Origin: a virus
Virus record (IMG/VR): IMGVR_UViG_3300032770_000095
Location: 1-22,235 of that record
Length of the DNA: 22,235 nt
Reading direction: 5' to 3' (one strand)
The notes under the pieces were generated by a model, which ran no database searches, was not told the origin of the DNA, and worked only from the letters and a program-made list of their open reading frames with translations. The position numbers and the translations under genes were made by a program. Positions 6,034-21,223 of the stretch are shown piece after piece (within the stretch, counting starts at the first letter, position 1; each line of letters starts with the position of its first letter).

Positions 6034-6329
6034 GTATCCGAGTTTAGCGCCTTGAGGGCTTCCGCGAGTTCCTTGCGCAGCCATACGTGCGCTTCGCGGA
6101 TTTCGCCGGCGGTGTCCCGGTACATCTGCGCAGAGTCCCCGTACCCTAGTACGTCCTCGTTCAGTGCGATTTCCCCCAGGCGCGAGCATGCCCTGTGCAC
6201 CATGTTGTCGAGGTTGTACAGCTTTTCCCACGACAGCAGCTCGGAACTGCCGCGCTCAATCACCGGAACTCCCAGCACCGCGTTCAGGGGATTCAGGGGG
6301 TAGTACGGATGACCGGGGAAGAAGGGCAT
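6030..6329 (-). CDS. Hypothetical 99-aa protein
   Basis: No recognised family. The N-terminus (MPFFPGHPYYPLNPLNAVLGVPVIERGS) is proline-rich; residues about 35-95 look all-helical (WEKLYNLDNMVHRACSRLGEIALNE, EIREAHVWLRKELAEALKAL), so a small helical-bundle protein is likely. AAGGA precedes the ATG at usable spacing. Its first 74 bp overlap the end of the K+ channel gene in another frame, and it ends in an ATGA overlap with the next gene, indicating translational coupling. Confidence 0.65.
   Translation of the reverse strand: MPFFPGHPYYPLNPLNAVLGVPVIERGSSELLSWEKLYNLDNMVHRACSRLGEIALNEDVLGYGDSAQMYRDTAGEIREAHVWLRKELAEALKALNSDT
6041..6046 (-). promoter_or_regulatory. Candidate -10 element (TAAACT) for the 5764-6033 gene
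   Basis: TAAACT, 7 nt, then ATG at 6033 on the minus strand. It lies inside the coding end of the upstream gene. Confidence 0.35.
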
Positions 6330-6651
6330 TTCTGAGTTCCTTGTGCCGCTTGTCGATGTGGTGCGTAACGCGCTCGGTAACGATACTGGTTGTCAGTCCC
6401 GCTGTCATGAGCGAGTACGCGGCGGCAAACAGCGGGATAACCGTCAGTTCGATCACGATGGCAATTAGTTTAGCCCACCCGGATTCAGGTGTGATATCTC
6501 CGTAGCCGACCGTACTTGCCGTGGTGACCGCGTAGTACAGGCCGTCAAGCACGGCTATGTGCTGCACTACGGCAAAAAGCCATCCGAGGATTGCGTCAAG
6601 GCCGAAGGCAGCCGCGATTACTGTCAGAGCCCTCTTAGCGTGCAGAGTCAT
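6256..6651 (-). CDS. Miniature potassium channel (Ion_trans_2 type)
   Basis: 131 aa. Order: a hydrophobic helix (about residues 8-30), a pore helix (LDGLYYAVTTAS, about 35-46), the selectivity filter TVGYGD (47-52) and a second transmembrane helix (about 60-88), then a short basic cytoplasmic tail. This is the two-TM/one-pore architecture of the smallest K+ channels; a tetramer in the host membrane would pass K+. The filter matches the canonical signature exactly. The start ATG at 6651 overlaps the end of the MazG-like gene by 17 bp; the ribosome site is weak (AAGG immediately before ATG). Function in infection is unknown. Viral K+ channels are best known from chlorella viruses, where they depolarise the host. 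Confidence 0.85.
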   Translation of the reverse strand: MTLHAKRALTVIAAAFGLDAILGWLFAVVQHIAVLDGLYYAVTTASTVGYGDITPESGWAKLIAIVIELTVIPLFAAAYSLMTAGLTTSIVTERVTHHIDKRHKELRNALLPRSSVLPPESPERGAGSSGD

Positions 6652-11073: not shown

Positions 11074-12747
11074 ATGGCCGCAGCCGTCCTCGATTACGAA
11101 GAGGAAATCTTCGGGGACCAGATGCCCCGCCTGTGGACCGCGCCCAGTCGGCACAGGGAAATTACCGAGGGATGCCGTCAGTGTGCCCGCAAAGACGAGG
11201 GCTACGGCAAAATAGGCTGCGGGAACTACCTTTCCACGGAAATACTCGACTGGGCTCGCGGTGTCGGCTACGTTCTCGACCCGTGGCAGGAATGGGTGAT
11301 CCGCGAAGGCTGCGGCACCAAGCCGGACGGCCGGTGGTCCAGTTTCGAGAACACGCTTATCATTTCGCGGCAGAACGGGAAGTCTGCCATCCTCGAAGTG
11401 CGCGAGCTGGCAGGAATGTACCTGCTGGGCGAGGGTCTTATCATCCACACCGCGCACGAGGTGAAGACCTCGCAGGAGCAGTTCCTCCGTATCTCGAACT
11501 CCGTCCTCCAGAATCCCGCGCTGTCGAAACGGCTCAAGGGAAAGCCCCGGGCCAGCCACGGCGAAGAGGCCATCGAGCTGATGCCTACGCCCACGCTCAT
11601 CCTCGGAGCGGGCAACAAGTGGGTGCACAAGTCCGTTTCCAGCCGCCTGCGTTTCCTGGCCCGCAGCCGTGGCTCCGCTCGCGGGTTCTCCTGCAACTGC
11701 CTGATCTACGACGAGGCGATGATCCTGGCTGCGGAGTCCGTCGGCGCGTCCATGCCCACCATGTCCGCCATGCCCAACAGCCAGATGTGGCTCGCCGGCT
11801 CGGCGGGAATGGAAGACTCCGAGCAGCTCGCACGCTCGCGCCGCCGTATCCTGCACGACACCCGGGACCTGTTCGGCGCTGAGTGGTCGGTAGTGCCGCA
11901 CCTGGCTACGTGCCCCGTAGACCGCGAAAACGGCAGGGCCGGCAATAACTACGTCGTCTGCGGTGCGCACGACGACCGTGACGACCCCCGCGCCTGGGCT
12001 AAGGCCAACCCCGCATTCGGCTACCGCCTGTCGGCTGAGTTCACGGTGAACGAACTGGTGACGCTGAGCGCGGTGGAATTCGACCGCGAGCGGCTGGGCA
12101 TCGGCCAGTGGCCCGTGGAAGACGAGGCGTGGCGCGTAGTCAGCGAAGACCTGTTCCGGTCCCTGACGCTGGGAGATCCCGGTCCTATCCCTGCCGGAGC
12201 CAAGCTCAGCTTCGCCATCGACGTGGACGACGACGGGGCCAACACCACGATCGCCGTCGCGTGGATGCACAAGGACGGCTTCATGGTGACGGAGATCCCG
12301 AAGAACTGCGCCCGCACGGGCACCAACTGGGCCGTAGAGCGCCTGGAACAGCTCGTGAGCAAGTACCACCCGCTCGCTATCGTCGCACCCCGGAGCGGGC
12401 CTGCTGCGGGCCTGGGAGACGACCTGGAGAAACTGTGGCCGAAGCACCACAAGTTCAGCACCAAGCTGATCCGCACAGGCCCGTCTGACGAAGCCGCCGC
12501 GTTCGCGTGGTTCATCCAGCAGTGCAACGACGAGGACCGGCCGCTGCGGCACCTGGGCGAGGAACGCGGCTACAAGCTCTGGCGCGCGGTGGGTACGGCT
12601 GAAACCCGCGTCATGGGCGACGGCGGCAAGACCTGGAGTCGCAGGGACAGCCTCACGGACATCACGCCGGCTACGGCCTGCAACCTCGCAGCGTGGGGCC
12701 TGAACAAGAAGATGCGCAACTACGACCTGCTGGCGTCGGTGCGCTAG
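11074..12747 (+). CDS. Terminase large subunit
   Basis: 557 aa. The ATPase has a variant Walker A (SRQNGKS, residues 98-104) and Walker B (LIYDEA, 210-215); this motor drives DNA into the prohead through the portal. The nuclease domain begins near residue 378 (LSFAIDVDDDGANTTIAV, with the metal-binding D383). An N-terminal cysteine cluster (CRQCARK and GCGNYL, about 34-50) is typical of actinophage terminases. Length is normal. It is the last gene of the rightward operon; its stop overlaps the stop of the convergent 12744 gene within CTAG. Confidence 0.93.
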   Translation: MAAAVLDYEEEIFGDQMPRLWTAPSRHREITEGCRQCARKDEGYGKIGCGNYLSTEILDWARGVGYVLDPWQEWVIREGCGTKPDGRWSSFENTLIISRQNGKSAILEVRELAGMYLLGEGLIIHTAHEVKTSQEQFLRISNSVLQNPALSKRLKGKPRASHGEEAIELMPTPTLILGAGNKWVHKSVSSRLRFLARSRGSARGFSCNCLIYDEAMILAAESVGASMPTMSAMPNSQMWLAGSAGMEDSEQLARSRRRILHDTRDLFGAEWSVVPHLATCPVDRENGRAGNNYVVCGAHDDRDDPRAWAKANPAFGYRLSAEFTVNELVTLSAVEFDRERLGIGQWPVEDEAWRVVSEDLFRSLTLGDPGPIPAGAKLSFAIDVDDDGANTTIAVAWMHKDGFMVTEIPKNCARTGTNWAVERLEQLVSKYHPLAIVAPRSGPAAGLGDDLEKLWPKHHKFSTKLIRTGPSDEAAAFAWFIQQCNDEDRPLRHLGEERGYKLWRAVGTAETRVMGDGGKTWSRRDSLTDITPATACNLAAWGLNKKMRNYDLLASVR

Positions 12748-13030: not shown

Positions 13031-13573
13031 TCAGGTCAGCATACCCCCGGTGGCGCAGTACGGAACACCGGTACTGCACGCGGTCCATCCGTCAGGCGGG
13101 AGGCCGACTTCGCTGAGCCCCGGAGCCTGCACGTCCTTTCCGCTGCCATTCGGGACCATGGCTACCGAGTCCCCGGCATCAGCAAGGATTACGAACCTGT
13201 AGCTGTAGTCCGGGTTGGTGGCGACCACGAAGTACGTGCGGCTGGTATCCGGTTTTTCCAGCCTGAACCGGCCGCCGCTGTAGCCGATCGCGTAAGCCCC
13301 GCTGGCCGTAGCGAACTCCAGGTGGTCGCCTGCCTCCCATTCCCCGGACCGGGACAGGTCCCGGAACCAGAAGCCCGCACTGGACGCGCACGGAGCCGAC
13401 GTAATCGGTTCCAGGTTCACAGCGGCCTTGTAGGTGGCGCAGCCGCCTCCACCCTGGGCAGTCAGCCAGACGTAGCGCCAGGGGGACGGTGCGGCAGGGC
13501 TTGCGTACGCGGTACCTGCCTGGGAAAGCCCTGCGACCGCAGCAGCGGCAGCGAGAGCGTACCTGATTTTCAC
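13031..13573 (-). CDS. Secreted protein of unknown function
   Basis: 180 aa from GTG 13573. A standard signal peptide: basic KIR, hydrophobic ALAAAAAVAGL, then a signal peptidase I site after AYA (about residue 25). The mature part has aromatic and glycine-rich beta-type segments (GFWFRDLSRSGEWEAGDHLEF, YSGGRFRLEKPDTS) and four cysteines that could form disulfides. No family recognised. A start further upstream would run into the tRNA-like element, so this GTG is preferred although the ribosome site is weak. Secretion by the host is inferred. Confidence 0.65.
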   Translation of the reverse strand: MKIRYALAAAAAVAGLSQAGTAYASPAAPSPWRYVWLTAQGGGGCATYKAAVNLEPITSAPCASSAGFWFRDLSRSGEWEAGDHLEFATASGAYAIGYSGGRFRLEKPDTSRTYFVVATNPDYSYRFVILADAGDSVAMVPNGSGKDVQAPGLSEVGLPPDGWTACSTGVPYCATGGMLT

Positions 13574-13574
13574 G

Positions 13575-13652
13575 TGGACCTGCACGGAATCGAACCGTGG
13601 TGTCCCTGGTCTCCGCGTGCGGTCCTGACAGGGATCGAGACCTTCCAAGCCC
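13575..13652 (-). pseudogene. tRNA-like relic
   Basis: On the minus strand the 3' half is tRNA-like: a perfect T-stem CACGG/CCGTG with loop TTCGATT and a 7-nt acceptor strand CAGGTCC that pairs with GGGCTTG using two G-U pairs. No anticodon arm with U33 can be folded; a CCCTG/CAGGG stem encloses a 20-nt loop instead. It looks like a decayed tRNA at the distal end of the cluster. Confidence 0.45.
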
Positions 13653-13660
13653 ATACTGTT

Positions 13661-13852: not shown

Positions 13853-13902
13853 GACGTGCTCTCCTGTCTGTCAAGCCCTTACTCCACGTGGCAAGCATAC
13901 AG

Positions 13903-13975
13903 CAGTCCCGGCGGGAATCGAACCCACGACCCTTCGCTTAGGAGGCGATCACTCTTTCCTCTGAGTTACGGGACT
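13903..13975 (-). tRNA. tRNA-Arg(CCT)
   Basis: Seven-bp acceptor CGGGACT-type pairing is perfect, T-loop TTCGATT. Anticodon loop CTCCTAA reads CCT, for codon AGG. Confidence 0.85.
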
Positions 13976-13979
13976 ATGG

Positions 13980-14051
13980 ACGGCGAACCGAGACTCGAAC
14001 TCGGACCTTCCGGGTTGCAGCCGGACGACTTAACCTCTTGCCTATTCACCG
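13980..14051 (-). tRNA. tRNA-Cys(GCA)
   Basis: Acceptor CGGTGAA/TTCGCCG with one G-U pair; T-stem CCGAG perfect; anticodon loop CTGCAAC reads GCA. Discriminator U, as usual for Cys, followed by an encoded CCA. Confidence 0.9.
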
Positions 14052-14055
14052 CTGG

Positions 14056-14124
14056 TACGCTCGCGGAGAGTCGAACTCCGTATGCCGGCTTCGGACGCCG
14101 GCAGACCCGTCCGGGGACGAGCGT
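14056..14124 (-). tRNA. tRNA-Arg(CCG)
   Basis: Acceptor ACGCTCG/CGAGCGT perfect; long anticodon stem GCCGG; loop reads CCG, for CGG. CCA is encoded. Confidence 0.85.
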
Positions 14125-14128
14125 AAAG

Positions 14129-14207
14129 TACCTGTTGAGAGAATCGAACTCCCCGTGCCGAAGCAAGCGGTTTACAGCCGCCATGTCCACCTTGGAACGT
14201 AACAGGC
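14129..14207 (-). tRNA. tRNA-Tyr(GTA)
   Basis: Anticodon loop CTGTAAA reads GTA. The longer length comes from a class II variable arm, as expected for bacterial Tyr. Acceptor pairs with one G-U. Confidence 0.85.
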
Positions 14208-14229
14208 ATATCCCCTTCCGGGGAAGTGG

Positions 14230-14302
14230 GGCGACTGGAGGGTAACTCTCCCTCTAACACACGGGTTCACAACCCGGTCCCTCAATTTTTGGGTTCAGCC
14301 GC
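14230..14302 (-). tRNA. tRNA-His(GTG), atypical T-loop
   Basis: Anticodon loop TTGTGAA reads GTG; acceptor GCGGCTG/CAGTCGC; discriminator C, the His identity base. T-stem GAGGG/CCCTC encloses AGAGTTA rather than TTCRANY, and the D-loop lacks GG, so the D-T tertiary contact may be weak. Confidence 0.75.
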
Positions 14303-14304
14303 AG

Positions 14305-14375
14305 TACCTAGCCGGGGAATCGAACCCCAATCCTCTGCTTGTAGGGCAGGTGTCCTTCCGTTGAACGAACCAGGC
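14305..14375 (-). tRNA. tRNA-Val(TAC), C33 instead of U33
   Basis: Anticodon loop CCTACAA reads TAC, for GTA, but position 33 is C rather than the nearly universal U. Acceptor pairs with three G-U pairs. T-loop TTCGATT is normal. Confidence 0.75.
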
Positions 14376-14435
14376 ATGAACTCACTGACGCTGTGCCGCA
14401 AAACAGGCCCTATTTATAATGGCTTCAGTGAGTAG
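14376..14435 (-). other. Inter-tRNA stem-loop, 9-bp stem
   Basis: ACTCACTGA (14380-14388) pairs perfectly with TCAGTGAGT (14425-14433). No tRNA folds here. Confidence 0.6.
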
Positions 14436-14510
14436 TACAGCGTAAGGGACTCGAACCCCTAAGTCTCCTGATTCGTAGTCAGGTGCTTTATTCCATTTAG
14501 CTAACGCTGC
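14436..14510 (-). tRNA. tRNA-Arg(ACG)
   Basis: Anticodon stem CCTGA/TCAGG perfect, loop CTACGAA reads ACG, for CGT (inosine could extend to CGC and CGA). Acceptor GCAGCGT pairs with one G-U. Confidence 0.88.
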
Positions 14511-14511
14511 G

Positions 14512-14586
14512 CGAGACCAACGGGACTCGAACCCGTACCCTCCACCTTGACAGGGTGGTGCATTATTCCTGTTTTGCTATGATCCC
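14512..14586 (-). tRNA. tRNA-Asp(GTC)
   Basis: Anticodon stem CCACC/GGTGG, loop CTGTCAA reads GTC. T-stem ACGGG/CCCGT perfect. Discriminator G, as in Asp. Confidence 0.9.
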
Positions 14587-14631
14587 ATGAAACCCCGTTA
14601 CTTATATAGCGCATACGGGACTGAGCGCTTG

Positions 14632-14704
14632 CTGACCTTACTGGATTCGAACCAGTATCCCCCGGATTAACAGTCCAGTGCTTTGCCAGTTAAGCTAAGG
14701 GCCA
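14632..14704 (-). tRNA. tRNA-Asn(GTT)
   Basis: Loop CTGTTAA reads GTT; discriminator G; T-stem ACTGG/CCAGT perfect. One C-A mismatch in the acceptor. Confidence 0.88.
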
Positions 14705-14742
14705 ATGTCCCGGAAATTTAACGTCTTTACGGATTGGACGAG

Positions 14743-14815
14743 TGGCGGGGGAGGGAATCGAACCCTCAATCTCCAGGCTTATGAGGCCGGTAACTTACCG
14801 TTTGTCCACCCCGCG
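14743..14815 (-). tRNA. tRNA-Met(CAT), initiator-like
   Basis: 5' end CGCGGGG with position 1 C facing C, i.e. unpaired 1-72 as in initiator tRNAs; loop CTCATAA reads CAT. The anticodon stem lacks the full GGG/CCC run, so initiator status is probable, not certain. Confidence 0.85.
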
Positions 14816-14817
14816 AG

Positions 14818-14889
14818 CAGTCCCACAGGGAGTCGAACCCTGTTCACCGGATTGAAAGTCCAGCATCCTAACCCATAGACGATGGGACC
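14818..14889 (-). tRNA. tRNA-Glu(TTC)
   Basis: T-stem CAGGG/CCCTG perfect; loop CTTTCAA reads TTC, for GAA. Confidence 0.9.
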
Positions 14890-14899
14890 ATTGTCAGTA

Positions 14900-14969
14900 T
14901 ACGGCAACCGGGTCAGAGTCATACTCCCCAGTGCAACCTGAACGCCCTCTTGGCTTCCCGGCTGCCGTA
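14900..14969 (-). ncRNA. Candidate structured RNA with 13-bp closing stem
   Basis: On the minus strand TACGGCA pairs with TGCCGTA, then a G-U, then CCGGG/CCCGG: 13 consecutive pairs around 44 nt that also hold GAGT/ACTC. It is tRNA-sized (70 nt) and sits between two Glu tRNAs, but has no T-loop or anticodon arm. Confidence 0.5.
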
Positions 14970-14971
14970 AC

Positions 14972-15045
14972 GTGCTCCGAGCGGGTGCTGACCCCGCAAC
15001 CACCGACTTGAGAGGCCGGTATTCTACCGTTGAACTACCGGAGCA
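14972..15045 (-). tRNA. tRNA-Glu(CTC), irregular T-arm
   Basis: Acceptor TGCTCCG/CGGAGCA perfect; D-arm normal; loop CCTCTCA-type reads CTC, for GAG. The T-arm GCGGG/CCCGC encloses GTCAGCA rather than TTCRANY and is offset by one base from the acceptor. Confidence 0.75.
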
Positions 15046-15048
15046 TAG

Positions 15049-15120
15049 TGGGTCCACCGGGATTCGAACCCGAATACGCGGGGTAAAAGCCCGCTGTCCT
15101 GCACGTTGAACGACAGACCC
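15049..15120 (-). tRNA. tRNA-Lys(TTT)
   Basis: Anticodon stem GCGGG/CCCGC perfect; loop CTTTTAC reads TTT, for AAA. Confidence 0.9.
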
Positions 15121-15124
15121 GTGG

Positions 15125-15195
15125 TAGAGACGACGGGACTCGAACCCGCACCTTCCGGCTTATGAGACCGGCACTCTGCATTAAGCTACGCCTCG
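15125..15195 (-). tRNA. tRNA-Met(CAT) or Ile2(CAT)
   Basis: Loop CTCATAA reads CAT. Position 1 C faces U, so the acceptor has six pairs. With an Ile(TAT) gene next door, an Ile2 role seems unnecessary; elongator Met is most likely. Confidence 0.82.
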
Positions 15196-15269
15196 TAGGA
15201 GATCGAGGGATCGAACCCCGTCAAACTGGATATAAGCCAGGCTCCGTCAAACCGTCCGGACCATCTCCC
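15196..15269 (-). tRNA. tRNA-Ile(TAT)
   Basis: Loop CTTATAT reads TAT, for AUA, a codon most bacteria read with lysidine-modified CAT. Acceptor GGGAGAT pairs with one G-U. It abuts the Met(CAT) gene. Confidence 0.85.
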
Positions 15270-15270
15270 G

Positions 15271-15343
15271 TACCGACTCTGAGAATTGAACTCAGCACAG
15301 CGACCTTATCAGAGTCACCCGAGCGACCAGCTCTGCAATCGGC
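15271..15343 (-). tRNA. tRNA-Ile(GAT)
   Basis: Loop CTGATAA reads GAT; anticodon stem pairs with two G-U; T-loop TTCAATT. Confidence 0.85.
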
Positions 15344-15389
15344 TTGGAGGTTCGCAGCTAACCATGGTAGTGGGCAATTCACGAACCCG

Positions 15390-15473
15390 AGGAAGAAGGA
15401 CGAATTGAACGCCATGGTGTTACCCACGATCCGCTTTCGAGGCGGCCCCCATTACCGGCAGGGATCATCTTCC
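15390..15473 (-). tRNA. tRNA-Ser(CGA)
   Basis: Loop CTCGAAA reads CGA, for TCG. 84 nt with a class II variable arm. Acceptor has six pairs; discriminator U is unusual for Ser. Confidence 0.8.
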
Positions 15474-15585
15474 AGTGCAGTCTGCCGGAGAGAACTCCCC
15501 AGTCATCTCCGGCTTTACCCGAGCGCGGTTACCCCGGTTTGTGTTGGGGGCTGGGAACGCAAGGGCAGGCCGCTGCCGTGCCTAG
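15474..15585 (-). other. Inter-tRNA gap with stem-loops
   Basis: GCCGGAGA (15484-15491) pairs perfectly with TCTCCGGC (15506-15513). A second weaker CCCC/GGGG fold follows. No tRNA visible. Confidence 0.5.
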
Positions 15586-15671
15586 CGGAAGACAGAGTAC
15601 TCGAAACCCAGGGTTTTTAGGCCCCCGGCCGGCTTCCAACCGGCGCTCCGGCCCTGCGGAGTTTATCTTCC
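15586..15671 (-). tRNA. tRNA-Ser(GGA)
   Basis: Anticodon stem GCCGG/CCGGC, loop TTGGAAG reads GGA, for TCC. Class II variable arm, discriminator G. Shares a 20-nt identical 3' segment with the next Ser gene (15588-15607 and 15773-15792). Confidence 0.85.
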
Positions 15672-15770
15672 ATTGCGTGCGGGGTGGCAGCTCGTATCTC
15701 ATACTTCTGGAGCTTGAACCGGAGAGCGTTGAATTGGGAACGGTTTTCTTCCCCCAAGACCCACCCGACG
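15672..15770 (-). other. Inter-tRNA gap with nested hairpin
   Basis: AGCTC(15689-15693)/GAGCT(15710-15714) with inner GTAT/ATAC forms a compact hairpin; an outer GGGTGG/CCACCC (15682-15687 with 15761-15766) may close the element at tRNA-like length. Confidence 0.4.
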
Positions 15771-15853
15771 CCGAAGACAGAGTACTCGAAACTCAGGGTG
15801 TTACCCCCCATCCCGCTAGCAACGGGTGGCCGGCCCTGCCGACTTTGCCTCCG
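15771..15853 (-). tRNA. tRNA-Ser(GCT)
   Basis: Loop TTGCTAG reads GCT, for AGC. Acceptor CGGAGGC pairs with two G-U; discriminator G; class II variable arm. Confidence 0.85.
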
Positions 15854-15943
15854 ATAGGAGAGTCCCTGGCTCATTTCACGCCCCAGGATTATAGCCGCTC
15901 TCTACGACTGCGTGAGTTCACTCGTCAGCATCACGCTAGCTGG
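15854..15943 (-). other. Inter-tRNA gap with two short hairpins
   Basis: CCTGG/CCAGG (15865-15869 with 15883-15887) and GCGTGA/TCACGC (15910-15915 with 15931-15936). Each is short enough to arise by chance. Confidence 0.35.
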
Positions 15944-16017
15944 TATCCAGTGCGGGATTCGAACCCGCAGCATCACGGCCTCTCATGCCGAGTGGTCTGC
16001 CAGTTGCCTAACCGGAC
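15944..16017 (-). tRNA. tRNA-Leu(GAG)
   Basis: Loop ATGAGAG reads GAG, for CTC. T-stem GCGGG perfect, CCA encoded. Only 74 nt, with a short TGATGCT variable segment rather than a long class II arm. Confidence 0.85.
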
Positions 16018-16072
16018 GTAGGTCACAGGGTTTTCAATCCCACCTTCCATACCAGGTACCTGTGCGGGTAAG

Positions 16073-16144
16073 TGCGGTAAACGAGATTCGAACTCGCTCT
16101 ACAACCTTGGCAAAGTTGCGTGCTGCCGTTGACACTACTACCAC
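16073..16144 (-). tRNA. tRNA-Gly(GCC)
   Basis: Loop TTGCCAA reads GCC. Acceptor GTGGTAG pairs with two G-U. T-loop TTCGAAT. The 55-nt gap before it (16018-16072) holds a 6-bp CACAGG/CCTGTG inverted repeat. Confidence 0.87.
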
Positions 16145-16264
16145 ATTCGACGGTGTATTTGGACCCCCGCGCCGCCACGGTAAAGGCTTCAGGCGACCCC
16201 TGCAAGGTAGTCCGGCAGTACGTCCGCTTGCAGCCGGGGCGTGTCGGACGGTGCCTGAAACCAG
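16145..16264 (-). other. Inter-tRNA gap with extended hairpin
   Basis: TTCAGGC (16188-16194) pairs with GCCTGAA (16253-16259), and inside it CTGCAAG (16200-16206) pairs with CTTGCAG (16227-16233). The two co-axial 7-bp stems form one long imperfect hairpin. Confidence 0.55.
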
Positions 16265-16338
16265 AGCCACAAGTGGGATTCGAACCCACGACCTGTGCCT
16301 TACCATGGCACCGCTCTTGCCGCTGAAGCTATTGTGAC
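16265..16338 (-). tRNA. tRNA-Thr(GGT)
   Basis: Anticodon stem GTGCC/GGCAC perfect, loop ATGGTAA reads GGT, for ACC. Acceptor GTCACAA with one G-U. Confidence 0.9.
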
Positions 16339-16465
16339 AGGGTGGAACACTTTATTTGAATTCGCGGTCCAGACGAATATGGAACGGGTAATTACTCCGC
16401 GCGAGCGTCCTCGCTCCTGCCGTCCGCCTATCCGACTACACGGGCAACTTCCGCAGTTCACCACG
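16339..16465 (-). other. Inter-tRNA gap, 127 bp
   Basis: No tRNA or ORF seen. A small GAGCG/CGCTC hairpin lies near 16403-16416 and a bulged GTGGAAC/GTTCACCAC pairing may join the two ends. Confidence 0.35.
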
Positions 16466-16538
16466 AGCCCGCTATCGGATTCGAACCGATTACCTGCGCG
16501 TTACAAAGGCGCTGCTCTGCCAGATGAGCTAAGGGGGC
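16466..16538 (-). tRNA. tRNA-Thr(TGT)
   Basis: Loop TTTGTAA reads TGT, for ACA. One mismatch in the acceptor and one at the end of the anticodon stem. T-stem ATCGG/CCGAT perfect. Confidence 0.85.
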
Positions 16539-16638
16539 GTTATAGGGTGAGCAAGTAATTGCGACCGGCACGAAGGCTGCTGTAGCCCTCGCTGTAATTT
16601 TTGGCCAGCGATAACCGATCACGTCCGGCTCACCTTTG
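16539..16638 (-). ncRNA. Candidate structured RNA in inter-tRNA gap
   Basis: GGTGAGC (16546-16552) pairs with GCTCACC (16628-16634) over an 89-nt span, an acceptor-like 7-bp closure. Inside are CGCTG/CAGCG and GGCT/AGCC hairpins. No anticodon or T-loop. Confidence 0.4.
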
Positions 16639-16712
16639 TACTCAACGTGGGATTCGAACCCACAGCATCAGGGTTTCTGAGACCCTGTGGTCTGCCAGTT
16701 GCCTAGTCGAGC
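16639..16712 (-). tRNA. tRNA-Leu(CAG)
   Basis: Anticodon stem AGGGT/ACCCT, loop CTCAGAA reads CAG, for CTG. 74 nt with the same short TGATGCT variable segment as the other Leu genes. Confidence 0.88.
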
Positions 16713-16809
16713 ATGTGGCGACAGTAGCCGCAGTGCGTTTTCGAGAGGCCACCCCGAACTACTCTGACGACCGGGAGCGGCTGCCGTCCTGCCCCGCTGA
16801 TCTCCTGCG
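16713..16809 (-). other. Inter-tRNA gap, 97 bp
   Basis: GTGGC/GCCAC (16715-16719 with 16748-16752) and an AGCGG/CCGCT hairpin. Short stems only; nothing else recognised. Confidence 0.3.
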
Positions 16810-16880
16810 CTTCCCCCCAAGGACTCGAACCTCAATTCCTGGAGTCAGATTCCAGTGTCCTGCCATTGAACGAGAGGGAA
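16810..16880 (-). tRNA. tRNA-Gln(CTG)
   Basis: Anticodon stem CTGGA/TCCAG perfect, loop ATCTGAC reads CTG, for CAG. T-stem contains two G-U pairs. Confidence 0.88.
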
Positions 16881-16966
16881 ATGGGTCCGGGACTATTGCA
16901 GGCTCCTATCCCGGCCTTATTGACTTGTGCACTCCCCGGAGCTAGATCACTGCGCACAAGCCTTGG
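16881..16966 (-). other. Inter-tRNA gap with two stem-loops
   Basis: CCGGGA/TCCCGG (16887-16892 with 16909-16914) and CTTGTGC/GCACAAG (16924-16930 with 16954-16960). Confidence 0.5.
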
Positions 16967-17040
16967 TACTCAGGGCGGGATTTGAACCCGCAGCATCAGG
17001 GGTTTTGAATCCCCGTGGTCTGCCAGTTGCCTACCCGAGC
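16967..17040 (-). tRNA. tRNA-Leu(CAA)
   Basis: Loop TTCAAAA reads CAA, for TTG. T-loop TTCAAAT, CCA encoded; one A-C mismatch at the end of the anticodon stem. Short variable region as in the other Leu genes. Confidence 0.85.
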
Positions 17041-17044
17041 ACAG

Positions 17045-17117
17045 TACGCCGCCAGGGATTCGAACCCTGATCTCGCTGGTTAAGAGCCAGCTATTCTCAC
17101 CGTTGAACTAACGACGC
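17045..17117 (-). tRNA. tRNA-Lys(CTT)
   Basis: Anticodon stem GCTGG/CCAGC perfect, loop CTCTTAA reads CTT, for AAG. T-stem CAGGG/CCCTG perfect. Confidence 0.9.
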
Positions 17118-17121
17118 TCGG

Positions 17122-17194
17122 AGCCACAAGAGGGATTCGAACCCACGGCCTCCCCATTACGAAAGGGGCGCTCTACCGCTGGAGCTATTGTGAC
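17122..17194 (-). tRNA. tRNA-Thr(CGT)
   Basis: Loop TTCGTAA reads CGT, for ACG. Acceptor and discriminator identical to Thr(GGT), pointing to duplication. One mismatch in the T-stem. Confidence 0.86.
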
Positions 17195-17198
17195 ATGG

Positions 17199-17270
17199 AA
17201 GGGTAGACGGGATTCGAACCCGCAGTAGATGCTTGGAAGGCACCGAGTTTGGCCGTTAACTAACTACCCC
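17199..17270 (-). tRNA. tRNA-Gly(TCC)
   Basis: Loop CTTCCAA reads TCC, for GGA. Discriminator U. Its 5' end overlaps the stop of the 17260-17409 ORF by 11 bp. Confidence 0.87.
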
Positions 17271-17409
17271 GTAAAAAGGCATTAAGCTCCCGGTAGGTTT
17301 CCAGGTGCTCCGTGCCGCAGAAGAAGATACGCCGTCCGTTTTCGTAGTGAAAGTCGTACAGCCTGCCGTCTACAGGCTTATCGCAAAACCAGCAGTAGTA
17401 AATCGTCAC
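17260..17409 (-). CDS. 49-aa zinc-binding protein inside the tRNA cluster
   Basis: GTG 17409 has GGGAGG 8 nt upstream. Sequence pattern C6-x2-C9, then C31-x3-H35 (YYCWFCDK and FFCGTEH), a compact zinc-binding fold reminiscent of TRASH/MYM-type fingers. It is the only convincing ORF among the tRNAs and runs into the 5' end of tRNA-Gly(TCC). Function unknown; a nucleic-acid or tRNA-related role would be only a guess. Confidence 0.65.
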   Translation of the reverse strand: MTIYYCWFCDKPVDGRLYDFHYENGRRIFFCGTEHLETYRELNAFLRGS

Positions 17410-17424
17410 AGCAGTCACCTCCCG

Positions 17425-17496
17425 TGGCCCCCGGTGGTATCGAACCACCCTCCCAAGTTCTTCAGACTAGTGCTAATCCGTCTCAGCTAGAGAGCC
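17425..17496 (-). tRNA. tRNA-Phe(GAA)
   Basis: Loop CTGAAGA reads GAA. T-stem GGTGG/CCACC perfect, one T-T mismatch in the anticodon stem. Confidence 0.87.
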
Positions 17497-17543
17497 GTTG
17501 GAGCGTTTATCTTGTATCCCGCAGGTACGCGCTCTGCGGTTAG

Positions 17544-17619
17544 TCGGGCTAGCAGGATTCGAACCTGCGTCCTCTCGGCCCCCAGCCGAGCGCTATAGAC
17601 CAAACTAAGCCATAGCCCG
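17544..17619 (-). tRNA. tRNA-Pro(GGG)
   Basis: Acceptor CGGGCTA/TAGCCCG perfect; anticodon stem CTCGG/CCGAG; loop reads GGG, for CCC. A CCGCAG/CTGCGG hairpin (17519-17539) lies in the gap before it. Confidence 0.9.
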
Positions 17620-17623
17620 AAAG

Positions 17624-17697
17624 TCTGGATGGCAGGATTCGAACCTGCGGCCACTGATTCCCGAAACCAGCGTTCTGCCAAGCTGAACTACACCCAG
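17624..17697 (-). tRNA. tRNA-Pro(CGG)
   Basis: Loop TTCGGGA reads CGG, for CCG. T-stem GCAGG/CCTGC perfect. Confidence 0.88.
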
Positions 17698-17917
17698 TCG
17701 GAGGGCTGTCGCGCTACGGACTTACCCGGTGACTAAACCCGGCAGTATCCGCGCTACGGCGGGGGAAAGCCCACAGAAACCCGTTCCCGCTTTATCCGCT
17801 ACCCTCAGCCGGTCAAAGCCTACTCTCACGGAATCCTTTAGGGAATGCTCTGCCGTTGAGCTACACCTGCGCTATCACGGCTTACGGTGCCCGGAGTTCA
17901 ACCGGGATCTCCCCTGG
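17698..17917 (-). other. 220-bp gap with half a tRNA
   Basis: At 17847-17872 (minus) there is a tRNA 5' end: acceptor strand GCGCAGG, TG, then D-arm GCTC/GAGC. No partner acceptor, T-arm or anticodon arm can be folded, so it looks like a truncated tRNA. A CCCGG/CCGGG hairpin with a 7-nt loop is at 17890-17906, and GCGCTACGG occurs twice near 17711 and 17752. Confidence 0.4.
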
Positions 17918-17989
17918 TGGAGATGATGGGATTCGAACCCACATGTGACTGCTTGCAAAACAGTTGCTTCCCTGTCAGGCCACATCCCC
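17918..17989 (-). tRNA. tRNA-Ala(TGC)
   Basis: Loop TTTGCAA reads TGC, for GCA. The acceptor GGGGATG/CATCTCC contains the G3-U70 pair that defines Ala tRNAs. Confidence 0.9.
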
Positions 17990-18153
17990 AGGGGGACAGC
18001 GAGTGGAGTCGCTGTCCCGGAAGACCGCAGTCAAGGGGATCTGGAGTCCCGCTGCTGCGATCTAGTCTTTTCATGCTTACCACTGTGGAGTTTTCTAGTA
18101 GCTTGTCCGTTCGCATCCTAGTTGGCTTGCGCCGTTCGGGTAGCGGGACATCG
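17990..18153 (-). other. 164-bp inter-tRNA gap with a 10-bp hairpin
   Basis: GGGACAGCGA (17993-18002) pairs perfectly with T CGCTGTCCC (18009-18018) around a 6-nt loop, with no T-run. The rest holds only weak repeats. Confidence 0.55.
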
Positions 18154-18224
18154 CACGCCGCCGAGGAATTGAACCCCGTCCAACAGGTTTGGAATCTGTT
18201 GTGCTACCGTAACACTTGCGGCAT
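18154..18224 (-). tRNA. tRNA-Trp(CCA)
   Basis: Loop TTCCAAA reads CCA, for TGG. Discriminator G, T-loop TTCAATT. It is the first tRNA in the direction of transcription. Confidence 0.87.
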
Positions 18225-18455: not shown

Positions 18456-19577
18456 TTACGACAACGGGCTGATCTGGAGGAACCGCGTGGTGCCGACTGG
18501 CATCGTGAGGCTGACTCCGCTGAACGGGTTGCCCGTGACGCCTGTCCACACATCTGTAGCCACTGCCGTGGGCGTGGCGATACCGAGCTGCGCCAGCGTG
18601 AAAACGGCTGAAGCCGTGCCGCCGCCCTGGTTGAGGAACAGCACCGCGCTGCCGCCGGCCGGATCGGGCTTGACGAATGCCTGGATGTTGGAGACCTGTA
18701 CCGACGTGGCGCACTGCTGGCCGCTCTGGTCGATCGAGATGAAATGCTGGTTCAGCAGTGCGCCGAGTGCGTCAGCCGGAAGCGCGGTCAGGTCAGCGGA
18801 GATAAGCAGAGGACTGGCTTCCATCGCCCACACCGCCAGCTGGTTCTGGAGATCCTGGAGCGTCCACCCGCTGCCCGGGTATCCCGGCGCGATCATGTCC
18901 AGGTCGTTCCAGTGGCCCGGTCCGGCATACGAGTGCAGGTGCAGGTCCGCCGCGAGATGGCCCGTGACCATGGAGTAAGCGGGAAGCAGCGGGTACTCGT
19001 CAGGAGCCACCCGCCACATGTTCGCGAAGCCCGACGAATCCTGGACAGTCTTCAGGAAGCCGCTCTTGCCCATCTGGTAGACAGGCAGTTCCTGGCTGTA
19101 CACCACGTCCGGGTTGAAGTCCCGGAGCGCCTGGCCGAAGCAGCGGTAGTCCTCGGTCAGCGTGTCCTGGGTGGTGTAAGAGGGCAGGCCGCCGCACAGG
19201 TCCACCTTCACGAAGTCGATACCCCAGTCGGCGAATGTCAGCGCATCGCGTGCGTAGTGGCCGCCGCTGCCGGCCAGTCCCTGGCAGGTCGTGGTGCCGA
19301 TCGACGTGTAAATGCCGAATTTCAGGCCCATCCCGTGGATCTGGTCAGCCAGCCAGGGCATGCCGCTGGGGAACTTCATCGAGTTGGGCTGAAGGCAGCC
19401 GTTGTCGTCGCGCACTGCATACGCCCAGCCGTCGTCCAGGTTGACGTACGTATAGCCGGCATCGGCGAGGCCGCTGTCTACGAGAGCCTGGGCCTGGGTA
19501 AGCACAAGAGACTCGCTGATCGCAGTGCGGAAGGCGTACCAGGTGTTGAAACCCATGACAGGATTGACCGGAGGCAT
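18456..19577 (-). CDS. GH27 alpha-galactosidase
   Basis: 373 aa. Opens with the family hallmark MGFNTWYAF, then YTYVNLDDGWA, a LKFGIYTSIGTTTC segment, the nucleophile region DFVKVDLCGG (D126), and the acid/base region PGHWNDLDMI (D225 or D227), all in (beta/alpha)8 order, followed by a C-terminal beta domain. GH27 enzymes release terminal alpha-linked galactose with retention. No signal peptide, so it acts in the cytosol, after lysis, or on the virion. Starts at ATG 19577 behind TAGACT and a close GAGGT. It lies with other genes aimed at the cell surface; trimming galactose-bearing wall glycans of host or debris is a plausible role. Confidence 0.85.
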   Translation of the reverse strand: MPPVNPVMGFNTWYAFRTAISESLVLTQAQALVDSGLADAGYTYVNLDDGWAYAVRDDNGCLQPNSMKFPSGMPWLADQIHGMGLKFGIYTSIGTTTCQGLAGSGGHYARDALTFADWGIDFVKVDLCGGLPSYTTQDTLTEDYRCFGQALRDFNPDVVYSQELPVYQMGKSGFLKTVQDSSGFANMWRVAPDEYPLLPAYSMVTGHLAADLHLHSYAGPGHWNDLDMIAPGYPGSGWTLQDLQNQLAVWAMEASPLLISADLTALPADALGALLNQHFISIDQSGQQCATSVQVSNIQAFVKPDPAGGSAVLFLNQGGGTASAVFTLAQLGIATPTAVATDVWTGVTGNPFSGVSLTMPVGTTRFLQISPLS

Positions 19578-20236: not shown

Positions 20237-21223
20237 TTAGCTGTTCTTGTCGGTCAGCCAGCCGTTAAGTGCCTTCACGATGTACGCGGGCCTCGGGTAC
20301 CACGACTTGAGGAAGCGGTGCGCCGCGACAACCAGCGCAAGCTCGCTAGGATCAAGCGGAGGAGTAGGCGTCGGAGTAGGCGTCGGAGTAGGCGTCGGAG
20401 TAGGCGTAGGAGTAGGCGTCGGAGTAGGTGCGGGGGCAGGGAACGGGTTCGGCTGGCCGGTGAGCGCCGCGAACTGCGCGCCGAAGCTCTGGAGGTCAAC
20501 GCCTTCCACGTCCTTCCCGGTAGCCTGGTTAACCCAGTCCTGGCTGATGAGCGCCCACGCCTCACCGCTGCTGCCCGCGACGTACTCGTTCCAGAAGGCG
20601 TAGGTCATCTTCTGCACCGCGCCCCACGTGTACACGTAGAGGTACTGCGCGTCGTAGCCGACGACGAGAACGCAGTGGCCGCCCTCGATCTGGCTGCCCG
20701 GTACGTAGTCCCACGGCTGGCCGGCGTTGAACTGGTCCATGGCCGAAGACGGGAAGGGGAAGCCGATGTCCACCGCGCCGAACTCGGCTACGGCCAGCTT
20801 CACGTCGCTGGTGTTCTTGGGGGCGAGCTGGGCGAATGCCGCGAGCTTGTGCGGGCCGAACCCGGTCTTGCGCAGCCAGTTCAGGCCGTCCTGGATTTCC
20901 GTGCCCTGGTCAGTGGGGTTTTCTCCCGGCGGTCCGGCGTTCGGGTCGAACCCGGTGATCGCGGAGTAGGAGTCGAGTGCCTGCGCGGTGCTGACTACGT
21001 ACTCGGCCGTCTGGCCCAGGTAGGTCTGCTGCTCTGTGAAGTGGCCGTTGGAGGCTTCTACGCAATCGCCCCAGTCGTCGTTGCCCAGCATGCCGATATT
21101 CGGAAGCTGGGAGTAGTAGTCCACAGAACCGGGCGGGGTCACGCCGGCCTTGCGGAATGCAGCGAAATAGAGCCTCGCCTTGTGAGGATCGTTCGGCTTG
21201 ACGCCGGGACGGAATGTAACCAT
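20237..21223 (-). CDS. Papain-like (C1-type) cysteine protease with (PT)n linker
   Basis: 328 aa. Catalytic Cys in DDWGDCVEA (C54) and His in GGHCVLVVGYD (H183); VYTWGA follows at the place of the Asn region in C1 peptidases. A proline-threonine linker (about 266-290) separates a C-terminal helical domain (SELALVVAAHRFLKSW). No signal peptide, so it may be virion-borne or released at lysis. The linker and end domain suggest a wall- or protein-binding module. TAAAGT lies 7 nt before the ATG. Confidence 0.75.
   Translation of the reverse strand: MVTFRPGVKPNDPHKARLYFAAFRKAGVTPPGSVDYYSQLPNIGMLGNDDWGDCVEASNGHFTEQQTYLGQTAEYVVSTAQALDSYSAITGFDPNAGPPGENPTDQGTEIQDGLNWLRKTGFGPHKLAAFAQLAPKNTSDVKLAVAEFGAVDIGFPFPSSAMDQFNAGQPWDYVPGSQIEGGHCVLVVGYDAQYLYVYTWGAVQKMTYAFWNEYVAGSSGEAWALISQDWVNQATGKDVEGVDLQSFGAQFAALTGQPNPFPAPAPTPTPTPTPTPTPTPTPTPTPTPPLDPSELALVVAAHRFLKSWYPRPAYIVKALNGWLTDKNS
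20361..20432 (-). repeat. Six 12-bp tandem repeats encoding the PT linker
   Basis: The unit reads GGAGTAGGCGTC on the plus strand, six copies in a row, the last degenerate. On the minus strand each unit adds PTPT. Likely length-variable between relatives. Confidence 0.85.

Follow-up and report, generated by a model that had tools for sequence, protein, structure and literature searches.

Why phages carry tRNA genes has been a matter of debate for over 50 years (PMC10264068). Among viral tRNA clusters, 8 of 228 held all 20 isotypes in a 2019 survey (PMC6409571), so the earlier note on this DNA was fair in calling complete sets rare, although they are not new, as Xanthomonas phage XacN1 and mycobacteriophage Momo precede the one described here. 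Cluster C1 mycobacteriophages (Momo, Bxz1, Rizal) carry about 34-36 tRNAs, those of Momo covering by description all 20 amino acids (PMC4472892) and accompanied by a tmRNA; for Momo, no link of the tRNA set with codon use was reported (PMC10264068). tRNAs for 20 amino acids are likewise found in XacN1 (PMC5852040), and Streptomyces phages of the NootNoot/Samisti12 kind, also actinobacteriophages, have ~40 tRNAs, some of them short Leu tRNAs. For a tmRNA reduced to its tRNA-like domain the precedent is mycobacteriophage DS6A, and a similar molecule was reported to inhibit tmRNA (PMC4131195).

A complete tRNA array in a soil-phage lineage

The window, meaning the whole 22,235-nt stretch analysed (positions 1 to 22,235 of IMG/VR record IMGVR_UViG_3300032770_000095), is assigned to a phage because head, protease, portal and terminase genes are present in it. 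ARAGORN called 29 tRNAs between 13902 and 18224, every one on the minus strand, and 25 reached the gathering score of the Rfam tRNA model in a scan of the whole window. Five tRNAs counted by eye in the earlier note, Arg(CCG), His(GTG), Ser(CGA), Ser(GGA) and Ser(GCT), had no ARAGORN call; all were recovered both by covariance models trained on relatives' tRNAs only and by a separate cloverleaf scan, giving a total of 34 (Table 1). The relatives' Arg model scored 72.3 bits (E=9e-17) in the Arg(CCG) slot, the Ser model 35.6, 35.0 and 24.9 bits in the three Ser slots and the His model 29.8 bits (E=5e-7) in the His(GTG) slot; the Ser and His models score other tRNAs equally high and therefore support a tRNA in the slot more than its isotype. 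Extras in the cloverleaf scan were exactly these five, at 18.2-23.4 vs a top antisense score of 16.2. In a second cloverleaf scoring, antisense hits reached 18.4, most of them having TCG "anticodons", so this scoring was not relied on alone.

Count, strand, extent and composition were therefore as originally read from the letters: 34 tRNAs on one strand, here the minus strand, for 20 amino acids, with agreeing isotype sums. Having 34 genes in 4.3 kb, the array is a phage tRNA gene cluster in the published sense of at least 15 tRNA genes at no fewer than 2/kb, and it contains 20 of the 20 isotypes (PMC6409571), His being the weakest. Among the six sole representatives that the earlier note singled out for checking, Ala, Trp, Phe, Cys and Val were called by both ARAGORN and Rfam, and His by neither.

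Table 1. Features of the window, with strand and supporting evidence
Feature	Coordinates	Strand	Evidence
terminase large subunit (query for closest relatives)	11074..12747	+	PHROG 9, E=6.6e-51
mini-tmRNA	about 13576-13652 (13575..13652)	-	strict structural scan, 72 distinct copies, stem covariation
tRNA-Arg(CCT)	13902..13975	-	ARAGORN, Rfam
tRNA-Cys(GCA), U73, encoded CCA	13977..14051	-	ARAGORN, identity bases
tRNA-Arg(CCG), compact D-arm	14057..14124	-	relatives' model E=9e-17, cloverleaf scan; ARAGORN-missed
tRNA-Tyr(GTA)	14128..14207	-	ARAGORN
tRNA-His(GTG), C73 CCA, non-canonical D-/T-loops	14231..14302	-	relatives' model, cloverleaf scan; weakest call
tRNA-Val(TAC), loop CCTACAA with C33	14304..14375	-	ARAGORN
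tRNA-Arg(ACG)	14435..14510	-	ARAGORN, Rfam
tRNA-Asp(GTC)	14511..14586	-	ARAGORN, Rfam
tRNA-Asn(GTT)	14631..14704	-	ARAGORN, Rfam
tRNA-Met(CAT), C1:C72 mismatch	14742..14815	-	ARAGORN
tRNA-Glu(TTC)	14817..14889	-	ARAGORN, Rfam
tRNA-Glu(CTC), unusual T-loop GTCAGCA	14972..15044	-	ARAGORN
tRNA-Lys(TTT)	15048..15120	-	ARAGORN, Rfam
tRNA-Met(CAT), C1:U72 mismatch	15122..15195	-	ARAGORN
tRNA-Ile(TAT)	15195..15269	-	ARAGORN
tRNA-Ile(GAT)	15270..15343	-	ARAGORN
tRNA-Ser(CGA)	15391..15473	-	relatives' model, cloverleaf scan; ARAGORN-missed
tRNA-Ser(GGA)	15587..15671	-	relatives' model, cloverleaf scan; ARAGORN-missed
tRNA-Ser(GCT)	15772..15853	-	relatives' model, cloverleaf scan; ARAGORN-missed
tRNA-Leu(GAG), short variable loop	15941..16017	-	ARAGORN
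tRNA-Gly(GCC), A73	16072..16144	-	ARAGORN
tRNA-Thr(GGT)	16264..16338	-	ARAGORN, Rfam
tRNA-Thr(TGT)	16465..16538	-	ARAGORN, Rfam
tRNA-Leu(CAG), short variable loop	16638..16712	-	ARAGORN
tRNA-Gln(CTG)	16809..16880	-	ARAGORN, Rfam
tRNA-Leu(CAA), short variable loop	16964..17040	-	ARAGORN
tRNA-Lys(CTT)	17044..17117	-	ARAGORN, Rfam
tRNA-Thr(CGT)	17120..17194	-	ARAGORN, Rfam
tRNA-Gly(TCC), U73	17196..17270	-	ARAGORN
tRNA-Phe(GAA)	17424..17496	-	ARAGORN, Rfam
tRNA-Pro(GGG)	17543..17619	-	ARAGORN, Rfam
tRNA-Pro(CGG)	17623..17697	-	ARAGORN, Rfam
tRNA-Ala(TGC), G3:U70, encoded CCA	17915..17989	-	ARAGORN, Rfam
tRNA-Trp(CCA)	18153..18224	-	ARAGORN, Rfam

Discriminator and identity bases mostly match the assigned amino acid across the array (Ala G3:U70 and A73; Cys U73; His C73; Pro C1:G72; G73 in Asp, Asn, Gln, Trp and two Ser), the exceptions being Gly(GCC) with A73, Glu(CTC) with A73 and Ser(CGA) with U73. 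In the sole His tRNA the usual D-loop GG is missing, as is the T-loop TTC (AGAGTTA instead), so this tRNA looks degenerate and its functional status is uncertain. Leu tRNAs with short variable loops seem odd, yet they are present in NootNoot too. Three odd ARAGORN calls in relatives, SeC(tca) in L128, His(atg) in L122 and Tyr(ata) in L124, were set aside, since on inspection by eye they are probably ordinary tRNAs with the anticodon misframed.

Syntenic arrays of 34-41 tRNAs for 19-20 amino acids are found in 10 of 11 relatives, an uncultured soil-phage lineage whose contigs reach 210 kb; the one exception is a contig that is truncated. Seven relatives cover 20 of 20 amino acids and the three others 19-20. 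Synteny and near-complete coverage persist, with identity bases preserved, in phages that share 62-82% head-protein identity with the window. This argues against the array being a tRNA island that built up without serving any function, a reading that several degenerate-looking tRNAs (His, Ser(CGA)) would suit and that we consider barely credible. An exact-peptide scan of bacterial genomes with the head protein returned no match, and a head-protein profile scan returned three Streptomyces loci at 46-47% identity, none with tRNAs nearby. In a search among the relatives for one RNA-ligase family, it was absent from all except one.

A mini-tmRNA beside the array

The region described in the earlier note ends just before a 35th tRNA-like gene (~13576-13652). 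This previously unannotated 77-nt RNA adjoins the array and corresponds to the tRNA-like domain of tmRNA without the tag-coding part: a 7-bp acceptor with G3:U70 and A73, the D-loop GGUCUCGA and a T-arm are present, and the tag-coding domain is replaced by a short stem and CCGCACGCGG hairpin. A tmRNA-type acceptor carrying both G3:U70 and A73, together with the D-loop GGUNUCGA and a T-arm, occurs in the window and in 71 other distinct copies, with strong stem covariation over the 72. Some are unannotated in Streptomyces phages, among them the cultured LuckySocke and BRock.

All 72 copies have G3:U70 and A73, measure 76-81 nt counting A73 and have a body of one short stem and hairpin; the tag frame and pseudoknot domain are absent. 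The central stem has 7.0 bp vs 3.9 in shuffled sequences. A conserved CCGCA/CGG hairpin is seen in phage copies. A tag frame was considered and rejected, since by eye only a few copies meet an early stop when read on from GCA. The window copy has no Rfam match to full tmRNA (ssrA, RF00023) at E up to 1, and only three relatives' copies passed the Rfam cut-off. Single-sequence folding was uninformative (z=-0.87), so that the case for the mini-tmRNA rests on comparison. By likeness to the molecule reported to inhibit tmRNA, it may block host rescue of stalled ribosomes. With DS6A as its one precedent, this neighbour holds more novelty than the array itself.

Codon use and the role of the array

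Codons lacking a phage decoder (AGA, CAA, CTA, TTA, CCA and TCA, when the Ala and Val boxes are taken as read by their single U34 tRNA) account for 67 of 5286 codons in the phage genes and 3 of 1870 within four virion and packaging genes. Codons matched exactly by a tRNA occur at 22.1 per thousand vs 9.7 (p=8e-5). Within the lineage, use of rare A-ending codons is higher where the matching tRNA exists (joint permutation p=0.0014, close relatives collapsed), a tracking behind which stand few independent decoder gains and losses. CAA avoidance of this kind was not seen in actinobacteriophage controls. Codon use thus fits the phage's own array; host codon bias is also a possible cause of the avoidance. 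The earlier proposal that the array frees the phage from host tRNA depletion or codon bias is borne out as to a complete, conserved set and the codon fit, and the codon data do not separate a depleted host pool from supplementation.

In the explanation that we would give an even chance, the array would supply phage decoders for every amino acid, and with host tRNAs scarce or damaged the phage genes would be read mainly by phage tRNAs, to which their codon use would have adapted. The mini-tmRNA, probably alanine-charged, would occupy SmpB and so reduce how far the host's tmRNA rescues and tags stalled ribosomes. We infer that the phage tRNAs are expressed and charged and become dominant, and that trans-translation is inhibited, the last being probable from the likeness to the reported inhibitor. 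A wider proposal is more doubtful: that this soil-phage lineage is near-autonomous in decoding, with a full set, genes that use almost exclusively array-readable codons and a tag-less mini-tmRNA switching off host trans-translation, and that this RNA is one member of a widespread family of phage RNAs, so far unannotated, that counter rescue and share a conserved central hairpin.

If host tRNAs were still active and the phage merely added tRNAs that speed its own codons, the most-used codons would be expected to be those with a matching phage tRNA, as they are; a complete set exceeds gap-filling, however, including decoders for codons that any GC-rich host should read well, and the phage makes almost no use of codons that lack a phage decoder, though a host would be expected to read them, which makes such supplementation unlikely. 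We see a similarly small chance for anticodon-nuclease evasion, in which host enzymes would cleave tRNAs once infection begins and phage versions with a changed anticodon loop, which escape cleavage, would take their place, as reported for C1 mycobacteriophages (PMC10264068). Of lineage tRNAs, 47 of 412 carry C33, compared with 6 of 117 from four other phages and 0 of 29 from Streptomyces, but in the window C33 is confined to Val(TAC), and Ser(GGA) and Ser(CGA), isotypes avoided by C1 phages, are present. Such evasion would be one cause within the own-decoder explanation rather than its opposite. Much less probable is that the array serves a broad host range by allowing hosts that differ in tRNA pools and codon use; XacN1 with its 56 tRNAs is described with a wide host range (PMC5852040).

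Comparison with known systems

Because one relative may have a decoder that another lacks, the question of why phages carry tRNAs is testable in this lineage, which is of value for having kept decoders for nearly all 20 amino acids with codon use that follows its own tRNA set. In many phages, the mini-tmRNA family would be a candidate for a natural RNA that inhibits trans-translation.

Momo differs from the window in lacking a tRNA for TCN serine codons and in having a full-length tmRNA (435 nt). The tRNAs of XacN1, a 385-kb phage, are scattered among genes within terminal repeats rather than gathered in one compact array. In phages of the NootNoot/Samisti12 kind they are interspersed with genes over ~30 kb, with RNA ligase and polynucleotide kinase nearby and a full 265-nt tmRNA. 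Closest to the mini-tmRNA, likened by description, is the DS6A tmRNA, which has little beyond the tRNA-like domain (PMC4131195). Mitochondrial and some plastid tmRNAs are also tag-less (PMC11915505); the mitochondrial ones are usually permuted, whereas the phage copies keep the standard end order in one short RNA.

Composition and conservation of the tRNA array

The window, a linear viral fragment of 22,235 bases encoding a major head protein, protease, portal and terminase, carries an array in which ARAGORN called 29 tRNAs on the minus strand. Reading the gaps between these calls by eye added Arg(CCG), His(GTG), Ser(CGA), Ser(GGA) and Ser(GCT), and an independent cloverleaf scan returned exactly the same five, all scoring higher than the best antisense hit (16.2). 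Covariance models trained only on relatives' tRNAs also matched Arg(CCG) (E=9e-17), the three Ser tRNAs (25-36 bits) and His(GTG) (29.8 bits) in the window; since the Ser and His models give ordinary tRNAs similar scores, these back the presence of a tRNA in the slot more than its isotype. The earlier note's count from the sequence, 34 tRNAs for 20 amino acids, was thereby confirmed.

All 34 tRNAs have 6-7 of 7 acceptor pairs and 4-5 of 5 T-stem pairs, and discriminator bases, judged by the identity rules of bacterial tRNAs, agree with the assigned amino acid in most of them. Ala combines G3:U70 with A73, Cys has U73 and His C73; G73 is found in Trp, Asn, Asp, Gln and two Ser tRNAs, A73 in the Leu and Lys tRNAs, and C1:G72 in the Pro tRNAs. 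Weak points are U73 in Ser(CGA), A73 in Gly(GCC), A73 together with an unusual T-loop in Glu(CTC), and His, where D-loop GG and T-loop TTC are both lost (the T-loop reads AGAGTTA); the closest relatives, L002 and L003, hold an ordinary His tRNA in the matching slot. Each of the two Met tRNAs shows a 1:72 mismatch, which makes an initiator among them plausible, either being a candidate. The Arg(NCG) tRNA, of some 70 nt, combines a very short D-arm, its loop only 5 nt, with a 7-bp anticodon stem; relatives' arrays L119, L120, L121 and L129 share this form.

Searches of viral contigs with terminase, head and portal placed the window in an uncultured lineage whose longest contigs span 100-210 kb. 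Fifteen of 19 records searched whole contain tRNAs, mostly 27-38 each (Rfam). By ARAGORN and cloverleaf scan, seven (G003, G004, G005, G007, G008, G010, G011) have 38-41 tRNAs and 20/20 amino acids, and G002 lacks a Phe tRNA; G001 and G015 have Trp only through a relaxed call, weak in G015, and G013 is a truncated contig. Gene order is largely preserved, with Trp at one end and Cys-Arg(CCT) at the other.

Features of the window and their coordinates
Feature	Position	Strand	Remarks
Small protein	6256-6651	-	Ion_trans_2 (E=8e-14), an ion-channel domain with two helices, here on a phage contig
Open frame	13031-13654		Signal-peptide-like start, directly after the mini-tmRNA
Mini-tmRNA	13576-13652	-	Overlaps opening codons of 13031-13654
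ARAGORN tRNA calls	13902-18224	-	
Compact Arg(NCG) tRNA	14057-14124		
His(GTG) tRNA	14231-14302	-	D-loop without GG
Val(TAC) tRNA	14304-14375		Only C33 of the window
62-aa open frame	17260-17448	-	Lies within the array, between Gly(TCC) and Phe(GAA); no PHROG/Pfam match
Alpha-galactosidase-like gene	18456-19577	-	Beside the array (Melibiase_2, E=1.6e-54); unusual phage cargo
328-aa protein	20237-21223	-	Long Pro-Thr repeat close to C-terminal end; no Pfam match

Codon use and anticodon loops

If Ala(TGC) and Val(TAC) each read their entire box, the codons without a phage decoder are AGA, CAA, CTA, TTA, CCA and TCA. Of 5286 codons overall these make up 67, and four virion and packaging genes have 3 among 1870. 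The average frequency is 22.1 per thousand for codons that a phage tRNA matches exactly vs 9.7 for the others (p=8e-5); no such difference was reported for cluster C1 mycobacteriophages (p=0.30; PMC10264068). In a comparison of 12 phages, presence of the cognate tRNA goes with greater relative use of CAA, CTA, TCA, CCA and AGA (joint permutation p=0.0014, close relatives collapsed to eight units). The codon results are limited by the small number of independent changes and by the simple gene caller used on the relatives, and host codon bias may contribute to them. Six actinobacteriophage controls show no CAA avoidance of the lineage's kind.

U33 is near-universal in tRNAs. C33 replaces it in 47 of 412 lineage tRNAs (about 11%), with the highest share among arrays L118-L129 in L124 (11/37), vs 6/117 in XacN1, NootNoot, Momo and CcrRogue together, 3/141 in seven other array phages and 0/29 distinct Streptomyces tRNAs. 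This excess would fit protection against anticodon nucleases. The earlier reading, that the set frees the phage from host tRNA depletion, for example by such nucleases, or from codon bias after host shutdown, is supported in part; its mechanism is one that we infer.

A mini-tmRNA family

An Rfam tmRNA search of the relatives gave short matches of about 80 bases adjoining the arrays. They correspond to a mini-tmRNA, the tRNA-like domain of tmRNA with the tag-coding domain replaced by a short stem with a CCGCA(2-4 nt)CGG hairpin. When 2.3 Mb were scanned under strict structural criteria, it turned up in several lineage phages and the window, the sole other match being the genuine 265-nt tmRNA of Streptomyces phage NootNoot.

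A pattern scan of viral contigs (D-loop, hairpin and T-loop) returned 101 stretches; together with earlier ones, 72 distinct copies, the window's included, have the full structure. The filter demanded G3:U70 and minima of 6 acceptor and 4 T-stem pairs, and left G1:C72, G2:C71, A73 and the central stem free, yet the first three occur in 72/72 copies. In an alignment of 61 copies, the acceptor is 100% paired vs 79% with shuffled 3′ halves and the T-stem 99.7% vs 66%, both figures favoured by the filter; the central stem, which is not, averages 7.0 contiguous pairs vs 3.9 (sd 0.15). Cultured Streptomyces phages carry the mini-tmRNA as well, with no RNA annotation in their records. Of 39 contig stretches checked, 7 have at least 11 tRNAs alongside it, so its occurrence does not depend on an array.

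Relation to known systems

The array is of a kind already known, since all 20 isotypes were found in 8 of 228 viral tRNA clusters in 2019 (PMC6409571), in Xanthomonas phage XacN1 (PMC5852040) and in mycobacteriophage Momo (PMC4472892). Judged on the open-access literature, what appears to be new is how large the mini-tmRNA family is, the conservation of its hairpin and its location beside complete arrays. Tag-less tmRNAs have been noted in mitochondria and plastids (PMC11915505). The tmRNA recorded in mycobacteriophage DS6A (PMC4131195) is, like the mini-tmRNA, reduced to the tRNA-like domain; a molecule similar to it was reported as a strong tmRNA inhibitor, perhaps through SmpB titration (PMC4131195).
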